Assembly (NCBI GenBank): GCA_023382455.1
Contig: JAHDVX010000023.1
Coordinates: forward strand, 13,210-50,887
Reading direction: 5' to 3'
Length of the DNA stretch: 37,678 nucleotides
Origin: Flavobacteriales bacterium
Lineage (GTDB): Bacteria > Bacteroidota > Bacteroidia > Flavobacteriales_F > PHOS-HE28
Shown piece by piece: positions 410 to 4,016 of this stretch (the first letter of the stretch is position 1; each line of letters starts with the position of its first letter). The translations under genes and the position numbers were made by a program. Under the pieces are notes generated by a model. It saw only the letters and a list, made by a program, of their open reading frames with translations, was not told the DNA's origin and searched no databases.

Positions 410-2407
410 TCAGAGCACCGTTACCTCGGTGCGGCGGTTCTTCGCGCGCCCTTCGTCGGTATCGTTGCCGGCCACCGGCTTGCTTTCACCGTATCCCTTG
501 GCCACCACGCGTTCCGCGGCGATGCCATGCTCCAGTAGGAAGGTGCGCACCGCGTTGGCGCGCTGCTCGCTGAGCTTCTGGTTGTCCGCATCGGAGCCCA
601 CATCGTCGGTGTGGCCACCCACCTCGATCCGCATGGTGGCGTTGGTGGCCATCAGCTTCACCAGCTTGTCCAACTCCACCGTGGAGGCGGGCAATAGTGC
701 GGCGCTGCCGGTCTCGAAGAAGATGTTGCGCAGCTCGATCTTCTCGCCGGCCGTCACGGGTTTCAGGCCCACGTCCAGGTCGGTCTGACTGGGCCCGTCG
801 CTCTGGGCCACGCTGTAGTTGCGGGAGAAGAAGAGGTAACCCTGCGCCGATGCGTTCAGTGCGTATTCCTTGCCGCGCGGCAGGCAGACCAGGAACTCCC
901 CACTGCCGGGATCGCTGTAGGCGGCAGTGGCCAAGGTTCCGGATGCCAGGTCGAAGAGTTCCACGTCCGCCTCCACCGGCTTGCCGGTGACGGCATCGGT
1001 CACCTTGCCGCGGATGTAGCCCACCGGCGTGGCGCGTGCAAACTCAGGGAGCTCGAAGCGGTAGAGGTCCATGTCGCCGAAGCCGCCCGGCCGGTCGCTG
1101 CCGATGTAGGCCAAGCGCCCGTCGGGCCCTACCAACACGCTGTTGTCCTCACCGGGGCTGTTGATGGGCGAGCCCAGGTTCACCGCCTTGCCCCAGCTGC
1201 CATCCGGCTGCATGCGGCTCACGAAGATGTCGGCGCCGCCAAGGCCCGGCAGGCCGTCGCTGCTGAAGTAGAGCGTCTTGCCATCGGGATGGATCTGCAC
1301 GCTCTGCTCCTGCCCCGCCGTGTTGACGTTGTGGCCCAGACGCTCCGGCTTGCCGAAGGATCCATCATCCCCCAGCTTGGTGACGTAGATGTCCATGCTC
1401 TTCCAATCCTTGCCGCTCTTGTTGGCACGGATGAAGTAGAGGGTGCGCCCATCGCTGCCCATGCTGGGCTGGCTCTCCCACTCCCGCGTGTTCACCGGGC
1501 TTCCGAGGTTCTCCGGGTGGGTCCACACATCGCCGATGCGGCGGCTGATGAAGAGGTCGCAGCTGCCCAGCCCCTTGTAGCCCTTGCCGTAGGTGCCATC
1601 CACTCCGACACACTTGGTGAAGACGATGAAGCGTCCGTCGGGCGTGAGGGTACCGGCACCTTCGTTGTCCGGCGTGTTCACGCTGTTGATCGGCATGGCC
1701 GCGCCCCAGCTGCCATCGGCCTTCTTGTGGCTCACGTAGAAATCCTCCTGCTTGCCGTAGGGTGAGGAAGGGTCGTCCACCAGGCGGGTGAACATCAATG
1801 TGCTGTCGTCGCCGGTGATGCAGGGAAAGTACTCGGCGGCCTTGGTGTTCACGCCCGGCCCGAGGTTCACGGGGTCGAAGGGCACCGGATTTGCCAATGC
1901 CTGCACGGCGAATTCGCAGTTGGCCAGGCCCTGTGCGATGCGCTTTCGCCGCTCCGGGTCCTGGTCCACTTCCTTGGCCAGCCCGAAGTGTTCCCTGGCC
2001 GCATCGTAATCACCGGCAGCCACCTCCAGCTCGGCCAAATGCAACGCCGCCGGCGGGAAGAAGCGCGGATCGATGGCCAACACCTCCTTGTAGCGTGCCA
2101 TGGCCTCGGCGGACATGCCCCGTTGCTCGTACATCTCGGCGAGGTAGATGCGCGGCTCGATGAAGCCCGCATCTGAGGCTGCCGCCTTGTTCAACTCCGT
2201 TTCCGCGCAGTCCCACTTCCGGAGGCGCATGCACTCGGCGCCGTTCTCATACTGCTTGACCGCACGGTTGTTCGTGCTGGTGTAGCGCACCGGCTGGGCC
2301 GTGGCCCCTGCGGCGGACAGCAGCAACACGGCCATGGCCACCAGCGGCCACAACATTCGGGTGGCCGGCTGACGCGCCATGGAAGCGGCCGATGGACCAA
2401 GGCTCAT
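410..2407 (-). CDS. PorE-like OmpA-family protein (TPR, PD40 propeller, CRD, OmpA)
   Basis: A 665-residue exported envelope protein. In order: signal peptide (about 1-37), TPR-like helices (about 45-150, YENGAECMRLRKW and two further units), a PD40/WD40-like beta-propeller (about 190-460, with repeated SPDG/HPDGKTLYFSSD-type blades), a carboxypeptidase-regulatory-like domain (about 463-533, GKVTDAVTGKPVEADV), and a C-terminal OmpA peptidoglycan-binding domain (about 557-665, with GGHTDDVGSDADNQKLSEQR). This is the domain order of PorE (PG1058), a Porphyromonas gingivalis T9SS component, and 665 residues fits that family. Paralogues with the same layout exist in Bacteroidota, so the T9SS role is inference, supported by two T9SS cargo genes at the right of the window. 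The start at 2407 was chosen because its ATG overlaps the queE TGA as ATGA and precedes a signal peptide; the frame stays open further upstream inside queE. Confidence 0.85.
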   Translation of the reverse strand: MSLGPSAASMARQPATRMLWPLVAMAVLLLSAAGATAQPVRYTSTNNRAVKQYENGAECMRLRKWDCAETELNKAAASDAGFIEPRIYLAEMYEQRGMSAEAMARYKEVLAIDPRFFPPAALHLAELEVAAGDYDAAREHFGLAKEVDQDPERRKRIAQGLANCEFAVQALANPVPFDPVNLGPGVNTKAAEYFPCITGDDSTLMFTRLVDDPSSPYGKQEDFYVSHKKADGSWGAAMPINSVNTPDNEGAGTLTPDGRFIVFTKCVGVDGTYGKGYKGLGSCDLFISRRIGDVWTHPENLGSPVNTREWESQPSMGSDGRTLYFIRANKSGKDWKSMDIYVTKLGDDGSFGKPERLGHNVNTAGQEQSVQIHPDGKTLYFSSDGLPGLGGADIFVSRMQPDGSWGKAVNLGSPINSPGEDNSVLVGPDGRLAYIGSDRPGGFGDMDLYRFELPEFARATPVGYIRGKVTDAVTGKPVEADVELFDLASGTLATAAYSDPGSGEFLVCLPRGKEYALNASAQGYLFFSRNYSVAQSDGPSQTDLDVGLKPVTAGEKIELRNIFFETGSAALLPASTVELDKLVKLMATNATMRIEVGGHTDDVGSDADNQKLSEQRANAVRTFLLEHGIAAERVVAKGYGESKPVAGNDTDEGRAKNRRTEVTVL

Positions 2408-3024
2408 GGGATGTTCAGGTATTTGTGGGTTTGTAGCGAGACCCGCCAGCGTGGGTGCCCCATCACATAGTTCGTCACCAAGGGGATCATGGCCTCGCGC
2501 TTGCTCCATTCCGGCTGCAGGAAGAGCGCGCAATCGGGGCGCGTCTTGCCGCCATGCCCCTCGGCCCATTGCAGGTCATGCTTGTTGAAGACCACCACCT
2601 TGAGCTCATCGGCGAACTGGTGGAACCCTTCCACGGGCTCCTTGAACTTTTTCGGGCTGAAGCAGATATGATGCCAATCCCCGGACAAGGGTGATGAACC
2701 GCTGGTCTCCAGGTGCGTGCGGAAGCCCGCCGCCCGCAAGGCATCGGTGAGCGGCCGCAGGTTGTACAGCAGCGGTTCGCCGCCGGTGACCACGGCGATG
2801 CGTGCCGGCCGGGCCGAGGCCTCGGCCACCAACTCCTCCACGGTGCGCACCGGGTGCTTGTCCGCTTCCCAGCTCTCCCTCACATCGCACCAGGTGCAGC
2901 CCACATCGCAGCCGGCCAGGCGGATGAACCACGCGGCCTGGCCGGTGAAGGCCCCTTCGCCCTGGATGGTGGGGAAGGTCTCCATGACGGGCAGCGCGTC
3001 ACCGTTGATCACGGACACGGTCAT
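2404..3024 (-). CDS. queE: 7-carboxy-7-deazaguanine synthase (radical SAM)
   Basis: QueE converts 6-carboxy-tetrahydropterin to 7-carboxy-7-deazaguanine, a step in queuosine/7-deazaguanine synthesis in the cytoplasm. The 206-residue protein shows the N-terminal ETFPTIQGEG motif and the radical-SAM cluster motif C39-x3-C43-x2-C46 (CDVGCTWCD), then VVTGGEPLL and LETSGS, all typical of the family. The ATG at 3024 (MTVSVINGD) is preferred over the one at 3075, because the latter lies in the U-run terminator of the RNA gene just upstream. The stop overlaps the start of the OmpA-family gene by 4 bases (ATGA), so the two are probably translationally coupled although their functions look unrelated. 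No queC, queD or queF is in the window. Confidence 0.93.
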   Translation of the reverse strand: MTVSVINGDALPVMETFPTIQGEGAFTGQAAWFIRLAGCDVGCTWCDVRESWEADKHPVRTVEELVAEASARPARIAVVTGGEPLLYNLRPLTDALRAAGFRTHLETSGSSPLSGDWHHICFSPKKFKEPVEGFHQFADELKVVVFNKHDLQWAEGHGGKTRPDCALFLQPEWSKREAMIPLVTNYVMGHPRWRVSLQTHKYLNIP

Positions 3025-3062: not shown

Positions 3063-3296
3063 AAAAAAAGCCCACACAGGACCGAGTTCAAAAAACCCAT
3101 GGATCACATGAGCGGGCCGGACAGAAAGGGGTCGGTAATCCTCGTGTTCCCGAAGGAAGCCACCCGAAGGTGGAGAGGCCCGCCCTTGCCCTTTGGATCT
3201 TCCGACCCTGAGGAAGAAGTGTTGGTTTTGAGAACCGATGGCCTATGTGGGCTGCAAGGTGACAGCGCACGGCTGTGAAAGAACGTCTTCGTGGGC
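3063..3296 (-). ncRNA. Structured non-coding RNA, candidate 6S-like RNA
   Basis: This stretch has no good coding frame but has a promoter, long-range pairing and a terminal U-run. The RNA begins GCCCAC (3296-3291) and ends GUGGGC (3075-3070), which pair and are followed directly by seven U (3069-3063). Nested inside are GGUUCUCAAAACC (3236-3224) against GGGUUUUUUGAACU (3098-3085) and GGGUCGG (3208-3202) against CCGACCC (3135-3129). At the apex are two adjacent UUCG-loop hairpins (3173-3160 and 3158-3147); a further small hairpin lies at 3276-3262. A closed 5'/3' stem with a long interrupted rod of about 230 nt fits the general plan of 6S RNA. RNase P and tmRNA signatures were not found. The RNA class is inference; that it is an RNA gene is well supported. 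Confidence 0.68.
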
Positions 3297-3328
3297 CGAA
3301 GGTAACACCACCTGCAACGAATACCAAA
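3297..3328 (-). promoter_or_regulatory. Bacteroidota-type promoter of the non-coding RNA
   Basis: On the minus strand TTTG (3328-3325) is followed after exactly 20 bases by TACCTTCG (3304-3297), matching the Bacteroidota -33 TTTG and -7 TAnnTTTG elements with one change (TTCG for TTTG). It lies 40-70 bases past the stop of the gene at 3371 and just before the first paired segment of the RNA. It is the best two-part promoter I found in the window. Confidence 0.65.
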
Positions 3329-3370: not shown

Positions 3371-3910
3371 CTACTCCCCTTTCTGCCCCACGAACTGGTC
3401 CTCCTTGTCCTCGAACAGGATGTTGAACGTGGTGAGGCTTCCGTAACAGCGGGTGATATACTGCTGCATCTCCACCTTGTCCTGCTCGCTGAGCCGGGCG
3501 TGGGCATTGATCTTCTGCTCCAGCACGCGGAACCGGTCGCGCATCATGACGATCTTGTGGAAGAAATCCTCGATGGGCACTTCCTTGCTCTTCAACGCGG
3601 CGTCGCGCGGTTTGATCTCCAGCATACCGCCTTCATAGCGCCGCGCAAGCTCCACGGGCTTCCGCAGGCTGTTGTCCTCGTCGAGCACCTCGCGCAAGGC
3701 ATCCTTCACACTTTCGATGTCCAGCGGCTCCGGCTCCACTTCCACCCCCGGCGCCACCACCTCCAACCCCTCGAAGGAACGCGAGATGGATCGCTCGCCT
3801 TGGTCCTTGAAGAAAATGTGGACCGTGCGTGGATCGAGGTCGTAGACCACGCCGAGGCCCAAGGTGGGGTGCTTCACGCGTGCGCCGATGTTGAGGCCGT
3901 AGTGTTCCAT
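3371..3910 (-). CDS. Conserved-looking protein with KOW/CarD-like N-terminus, unknown function
   Basis: 179 residues, no signal peptide or membrane segment, so probably cytoplasmic. The first 45 residues (GARVKHPTLGLGVVYDLDP, then VHIFFKDQGERSIS) look like a small beta-barrel of the KOW/Tudor or CarD-N type, in which a GxGVV turn is typical; such folds bind nucleic acid or RNA polymerase. The remainder is mostly charged helix (VKDALREVLDEDN, then MRDRFRVLEQKINAHARLSEQDKVEMQQYI). No family is recognised with certainty. The ATG at 3910 is preferred over 3937, because a -7-like box (TATCATTG, 3935-3928) overlaps the upstream codons. It stands alone between the M14 peptidase and the RNA gene. Confidence 0.75.
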   Translation of the reverse strand: MEHYGLNIGARVKHPTLGLGVVYDLDPRTVHIFFKDQGERSISRSFEGLEVVAPGVEVEPEPLDIESVKDALREVLDEDNSLRKPVELARRYEGGMLEIKPRDAALKSKEVPIEDFFHKIVMMRDRFRVLEQKINAHARLSEQDKVEMQQYITRCYGSLTTFNILFEDKEDQFVGQKGE

Positions 3911-3927
3911 GGATCGATGTGTGGGGC

Positions 3928-3935
3928 AATGATAC
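3928..3935 (-). promoter_or_regulatory. Possible -7 box upstream of the KOW-like gene
   Basis: TATCATTG on the minus strand matches TAnnTTTG at all but one position and lies 17 bases before the ATG at 3910. No clear -33 TTG was found at the right distance, so this is weak on its own. Confidence 0.3.
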
Positions 3936-4016
3936 ATCCTGTGGTGGCTCCACCTGAATAGCAGGATGCCGTGGTGATGACGGGTTGGAGAGGTGGGTGA
4001 GGACGGAAACGCCGGG

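Follow-up and report, generated by a model that had tools for sequence, protein, structure and literature searches.

On the minus strand of the window (the whole stretch of DNA that was analysed, 37,678 nucleotides from a Flavobacteriales bacterium), an ORF (3937-3371) and a radical SAM gene (3024-2404) are separated by a gap for which an RNA gene, possibly a 6S RNA, had been predicted from the letters alone. The question raised by this locus is whether the RNA sited in the gap is a 6S RNA, and how it is expressed. 6S RNA is a mimic of the open promoter which is bound to the RNA polymerase holoenzyme and released by the synthesis of a product RNA. In its classical form it consists of a closing stem, a central bubble and a long apical arm.

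The locus and its conservation in the genus

The radical SAM gene, directly downstream of the RNA and on the same strand, matched Pfam PF04055 and is probably queE by our reading of its name. The 188-aa protein encoded upstream (3371-3937, minus strand) showed no ZapA match in Pfam, only a weak similarity below threshold to a RapA Tudor-like domain (E 0.00022, 21.6 of 26.3 bits). BLAST with the stretch gave matches in 28 of 58 genomes, all of them from the same genus (28 of 35 when the source genome is counted), and in 0 of the 23 genomes outside it. Five of the seven same-genus genomes lacking a match were less than 90% complete. The source genome contained one match in the search with its own model. 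A pattern scan of named genomes returned 36 stretches, including two presumed chance matches (L081, L085) and the leaderless L103, nearly all from metagenome-assembled records named as "Flavobacteriales" or "Bacteroidetes/Bacteroidota". The RNA of this genus is also borne by a metagenome-assembled genome labelled Chryseobacterium gleum (L099), a species label that is probably wrong.

For comparison, 26 full same-genus loci were aligned (A1); L023 and L028 were omitted because they are truncated by contig ends. A conserved reading frame, which the original prediction had named as evidence against an RNA gene, was not kept: 0 of 6 frames, unadjusted for indels, were stop-free throughout all 26 homologues. 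The protein-coding reading of the overlapping ORFs was rejected on the ground that they are not kept and every frame has stops in some homologue.

Secondary structure and covariation

The predicted fold of the transcript had a free energy of -90.1 kcal/mol (z -3.1), and none of 200 shuffled sequences was as stable. A structure of 51 pairs was paired in 97.1% of cells on A1 (n = 26 same-genus loci), and controls slid along the alignment paired in 26-52% of cells. Two-sided changes were found in 19 of the 51 pairs, in 108 cells, and 0 of 500 shuffles reached any of these measures. RNAalifold alone, run on A1, produced 45 pairs, 18 of them with two-sided changes. The features of the locus are collected in Table 1.

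Table 1. Features of the RNA gene and its leader on the minus strand of the window
Feature	Position	Strand	Evidence and remarks
Possible -33 element of a sigma-A (Bacteroidota) promoter, TTTG	3325..3328	-	Sequence
-7 element, TAnnTTTG type, TACCTTCG	3297..3304	-	20 nt after TTTG
boxA-like element CGTTCTTT, just past the inferred transcription start	3278..3285	-	Exact in 24/26 same-genus loci
Small leader hairpin between boxA and RNA body	3262..3276	-	Predicted fold; another sequence in the genus's more distant clade
6S RNA body (very probable assignment) and terminator	3063..3253	-	R1 match 3253-3059, 220.9 bits; the window locus is in the R1 training set
Closing stem P1, 5' strand	3240..3253	-	Pairs with 3083-3069; 99.5% of cells paired, two-sided changes in 4/14 pairs
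P2, 5' strand	3224..3235	-	3235-3232 with 3089-3086; 3229-3224 with 3097-3092
Central bubble, 5' strand	3209..3223	-	Unpaired; invariant AACA in 26 sequences
P3, 5' strand	3201..3208	-	Pairs with 3121-3114; 97.1% paired, two-sided changes in 5/8 pairs
P4, 5' strand	3189..3194	-	Pairs with 3130-3125; two-sided changes in 4/6 pairs
Internal loop, 5' side, GGCGGGCC	3177..3184	-	Invariant in 26; same letters in RF01693 consensus
Apical hairpin 1, UUCG loop	3160..3173	-	Sequence; relatives differ in length and loop
Apical hairpin 2, UUCG loop	3147..3158	-	Two-sided changes in 2/3 counted pairs
Internal loop, 3' side, GGAUUAC	3135..3141	-	Invariant in 26; same letters in RF01693 consensus
P4, 3' strand	3125..3130	-	A1 covariation
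P3, 3' strand	3114..3121	-	A1 covariation
Central bubble, 3' strand, with CAUG/CAUG mini-hairpin	3098..3113	-	97.1% paired, nearly invariant in genus
P2, 3' strand	3086..3097	-	A1 covariation
Closing stem P1, 3' strand	3069..3083	-	Adjoins U run; A1 covariation
U7 of terminator	3063..3069	-	Sequence

Most of the architecture read from the single sequence was recovered. The predicted pairing of the 5' and 3' ends corresponds to the closing stem, and the helix of 3236-3224 with 3098-3085, the two UUCG hairpins (3173-3160 and 3158-3147) and the seven U at 3069-3063 were present as described. In P2 the segment 3235-3232/3089-3086 was paired in 83.5% of cells with zero two-sided changes on A1, and the segment 3229-3224/3097-3092 in 97.4%, two of its six pairs showing two-sided changes. 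A second long helix proposed at the same time, 3208-3202 with 3135-3129, did not survive: it was paired in 81.9% of cells with two-sided changes in one of seven pairs, and was rejected in favour of the pairing of 3208-3201 with 3121-3114 (P3).

The structure was then followed across families in A4, an alignment of 31 loci selected more strictly than an earlier 41-row set that had contained nine antisense rows (L069 was also lost by this selection), and in A5, with 45 rows. Pairing on A4 was 95.4%, with slid controls at 33-50%, and two-sided changes were present in 44 of 51 pairs on A4 and in 50 of 51 on A5, both alignments being fitted to the model. The same nine helices showed two-sided changes across families. 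The covariation proposed as a check of the prediction was strong both within the genus and on A4, and a 6S-type rod with closing stem, central bubble and apical arm is supported by it. The CAUG/CAUG mini-hairpin of the bubble had two-sided changes in three of four pairs on A4 and was paired in 72.2% of cells on A5. The internal loop was less constant: GCGGGCC of its 5' side was found in 29 of 31 A4 rows but only 13 of 45 A5 rows, and GGATTA of its 3' side in 30 of 31 and 16 of 45, respectively. The idea of a phylum-wide GGCGGGCC/GGAUUAC loop was weakened accordingly, although the loop is conserved within the genus and among RF01693 members. The antisense strand also scored with the covariance model R1 described below (28-34 bits in nine same-genus loci, 18.4 bits in the window), which is expected since the RNA is a near-palindromic rod.

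Relationship to Rfam families

No match at gathering score was obtained when the whole window was compared with Rfam. With lax limits, RF01693 (Bacteroidales-1) gave a partial match of 19.8 bits at 3194-3125, covering model positions 60-123 of 179, with GGCGGGCC and GGAUUAC common to both. The scan, which had been suggested as a check, yielded this partial likeness and no match to RF00013 or RF01685 (6S-Flavo). The gathering scores, 60 for RF01693 and 85 for RF01685, are cut-offs of models built from other sequences and not biological features; the window RNA lies below both, and direct Rfam scanning misses it for this reason. RF00013 did not match the source genome, while the same search detected its target in five control genomes. 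RF01685 had no match in the source genome either, a result that alone shows little, since the search did not respond in any control genome. Among the 58 relatives, RF01693 gave 12 rows at E up to 1, none above the cut-off: all eight same-genus rows were at the syntenic locus, and four were in other families, two of them with E below 0.01.

Covariance models of the RNA itself were more informative. R1, built from the 26 same-genus loci only, matched 27 of 395 genomes of the class, in 11 of 196 genera, and recovered L067-L069 full length at 33-39 bits; these are members of RF01693 at 183-189 bits. One locus, L029, scored with RF01693 (41.1 bits) and with RF01685 (49.3 bits) over the same stretch, below both gathering scores. 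The widened model R2, built from the 31 A4 loci, matched 107 of the 395 class genomes (61 of 196 genera) and 45 of 395 genomes of the phylum, 28 of them outside the class, with one match in each; under the strict filters used, 288 class genomes were without a match. R2 recovered L135-L137, gathering-level members of RF01685 (90-104 bits for that model), and also four further gathering-level members of RF01693. The 40 R2 loci that were fetched comprised these three RF01685 and four RF01693 members and 33 loci that reached neither gathering score. RF00013 had no match in the 53 Bacteroidota loci scanned, and R2 did not match ssrS of E. coli.

Full-length homology to accepted members of both Rfam families was thus found by way of R1 and R2, and because of it Bacteroidales-1, 6S-Flavo and the window RNA are regarded as one family. 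At the level of sequence comparison, the window RNA is shown to be a conserved structured RNA of the same family as RF01693 and RF01685, and it is a diverged member of the Bacteroidota 6S RNA, not the RF00013 form. Given the negative results with RF00013 and with R2 on ssrS, kinship with classical 6S RNA draws on the structural plan, the neighbouring gene, the Rfam text and work in Bacteroides thetaiotaomicron. The Rfam text for RF01693 states that "6S-Bacteroidales RNA suggested", and the accessible part of the paper naming Bacteroidales-1 carries no 6S label. 6S RNA and its product RNAs have been detected in B. thetaiotaomicron (PMC7366714). Since RF01693 but not RF00013 gave a match in the Bacteroides control genome, the 6S RNA of B. 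thetaiotaomicron is presumably RF01693. The original guess of a 6S RNA is in this way supported through the Rfam families, and the window segment 3253-3063 (minus strand) is very probably a 6S RNA gene.

Neighbouring genes

Neighbours were surveyed at 56 divergent loci. An upstream ORF of at least 50 residues ended within 200 bases of the RNA in 49 of them, and in 28 of these 49 (28/56 of all loci) it was ZapA by Pfam. Downstream, RNase_Y_N matched 12 of 35 ORFs, many of which were shortened by the ends of the fetched stretch. The gene for ssrS follows zapA in many beta- and gamma-Proteobacteria (PMC7641849), and in E. coli the order is zapA, 41 bases, ssrS. In the source genome ZapA is followed by RNase Y after 61 bases (L163 1768-1828, C5), and this zapA-rny locus contained no 6S match and no boxA-like letters on the coding strand. 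Since zapA and rny adjoin there without the RNA, the 6S gene seems to have moved; probably it left the zapA-rny site, which it occupies in other Bacteroidota, for its present place ahead of the radical SAM gene, where it has a promoter of its own.

Promoter, leader and boxA-like element

The predicted promoter, TTTG-N20-TACCTTCG, was present in the window, and its two parts fared differently among the homologues: a -7 box of the form TAnnTT[CTG] was found in 26 of 26 same-genus leaders, but TTTG near -33 was kept in only 7 of 26. The -7 consensus of Bacteroidota promoters is TAnnTTTG (PMC7366714, PMC9723704). By sequence, the gene has its own promoter, marked by the -7 box, and its own terminator, marked by the U run at the 3' end. 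Transcription would run from about 3290 towards 3063. The predicted length of about 230 nt fits the probable primary transcript, of which about 35 nt are leader, but the structured RNA measures only about 190 nt. In the more distant clade of the genus (L022, L024-L027) the part of the leader that separates boxA from the RNA has about 20 additional bases and contains a shared ACCTG...GCATC stretch.

The original prediction did not mention a boxA-like element at 3285-3278 of the leader. In the genus, CGTTCTTT follows the -7 box by 6-12 nt, with a spacing of 11 nt in 19 of 24 loci including the window. No 16S rRNA was found in the source assembly. Two sets of other genomes yielded it in 5 of 8 and in 4 of 12 cases, and three of the six same-genus genomes examined have it. 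All three same-genus rRNA leaders (3/3 with 16S) have CGTTCTTT 18 nt after the -7 box, and in the same genomes GTTCTTTGAC boxes precede 16S and recur in the 16S-23S spacer. The boxA sequence is thus common to the 6S leader and the rRNA leaders of the same group. The arrangement of -7 box and boxA occurred at the 6S leader in 27 of the 36 pattern-scan loci and was not seen elsewhere on either strand of the 276,791 bases; these being largely the same loci and genomes, the count is not independent of that from A1.

G[TA]TCTTT was found in the 100 bases preceding the RNA at 35 of the 56 divergent loci, where 2.0 would be expected from the remaining sequence of these loci; such counts are not independent events because the loci are related. 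The motif was present at 24 of the 28 loci linked to zapA and at 11 of the other 28. Extending the search a little raised the former count to 25 of 28, and 23 of these boxes were 0-14 bases past the zapA stop; the two exceptions are L153, where the ORF is misread through an N run, and L160, where the box overlaps the ORF end. Six boxes fit GYTCTTTAANA exactly, against 0.16 expected, and a GYTCTTT match at L069 is false, being located in the terminator of the upstream gene. GYTCTTTAANA is the published gamma-proteobacterial boxA (PMC5725501). The box was absent in 21 of the 56 loci, including all seven gathering-level RF01693 loci, and therefore is not essential to 6S RNA. Nor do its letters simply match within each genome, since in two genomes of one family (f2; G352 and G236) the rRNA boxes near 16S read GTTATTTGAC and the 6S leaders GATCTTT. 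One genome (G134, locus L073), whose sole SSU rRNA match is unlike bacterial 16S and may be contamination, was left out of the leader comparison.

Discussion

We hold with considerable confidence the combined reading of a 6S RNA gene with a polymerase-mimic role, a boxA leader and a former site between zapA and rny. The partial extent of the direct Rfam match could be explained by a lineage-specific structured RNA that binds a protein or acts as antisense and shares only a motif with Bacteroidales-1. Such an RNA is improbable, as R1 and R2 recover members of two Rfam 6S families over their full length, the same nine helices carry two-sided changes across families, and ZapA is the neighbour in half of the divergent loci. 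Even more remote is a riboswitch or attenuator in the 5' leader of the probable queE (2404-3024). The RNA does stand just upstream of that gene, in the same orientation, and the U run at its end resembles a terminator; however, its homologues elsewhere in the class are preceded by zapA or unrelated genes and followed by rny or unrelated genes, and 99.5% of cells pair in the closing stem that adjoins the U run. This reading was rejected on the neighbours of the homologues.

Instead of an antitermination signal, the box itself could be a processing site or belong to the initially transcribed region of an rRNA-type promoter. Its position (6-12 nt after the -7 box in the genus, 18 nt in rRNA leaders) speaks for this explanation, which we regard as tentative and rather unlikely; against it, 23 of the 25 boxes found at zapA-linked loci start 0-14 nt after the zapA stop, and six boxes equal the gamma-proteobacterial consensus to the letter. 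For the antitermination reading, we give an even chance to the proposal that, RF01693 lineages apart, many Bacteroidota produce 6S RNA in the manner of an rRNA transcript, with a boxA directly before the RNA recruiting the rRNA antitermination complex. In this proposal the boxA sits just past the zapA stop, or just past the gene's own promoter once the gene has moved.

Judging from its kinship and anatomy, the rod would imitate an open promoter, bind the RNA polymerase holoenzyme that carries sigma-A and keep it off promoters during slow growth. The closing stem may take the place of the DNA downstream, and the apical arm that of the DNA upstream. The 5' strand of the bubble (3223-3209) is the expected template of the product RNA, and the enzyme would be released on copying a short product from it. 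By hand count, about 21-24 bases separate the GGCGGGCC/GGAUUAC loop from the edge of the bubble, a distance that may place the loop near the -33 contact of sigma-A, although this is a guess. At the transcript start, boxA could load antitermination factors of the NusB/S10 type as in rRNA operons; the untranslated structured transcript might then escape early termination, for example by Rho, and the leader would afterwards be trimmed back to the closing stem.

Among the closest known RNAs is RF01693: the genus model recovers gathering-level members of it over their full length, and they share the plan and the internal loop, whereas the window RNA is far under its gathering score; its seven gathering-level loci lack a boxA-like leader element and, by our ORF reading, ZapA. 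The three RF01685 members recovered by R2 all follow a ZapA ORF, two with the box and one with GTTCATT, but the core of that family is shorter, at 108 positions, and its search of the source genome was matchless (as in every control). Classical 6S RNA (RF00013; E. coli ssrS) has the same stem-bubble-arm plan and stands after zapA, as the gene does in many Bacteroidota; it differs in the absence of cross-matches between the models and in the E. coli zapA-ssrS gap, which has no boxA-like element. The boxA-bearing rRNA leaders of the genus share CGTTCTTT after the -7 box but not its spacing. BoxA is known before long non-coding transcripts, the CRISPR arrays (PMC7862264); here the box likewise precedes a non-coding transcript, in this case a 6S RNA. 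The boxA survey PMC5725501 states that it left non-coding RNAs aside, and no report of a boxA leader of 6S RNA was found in the literature searched, whose coverage leaves out most subscription papers.

Present Rfam models appear to miss the 6S RNA of many Bacteroidota, as only 7 of the 40 fetched R2 loci reach a gathering score, and a single model unites Bacteroidales-1, 6S-Flavo and the RNA of the window's genus. The zapA-6S neighbourhood of Proteobacteria also occurs in Bacteroidota. If the boxA is functional, 6S RNA and rRNA would share one antitermination control; if this is true, the RNA that silences polymerase and the rRNAs that mark fast growth would be placed under one control of elongation.
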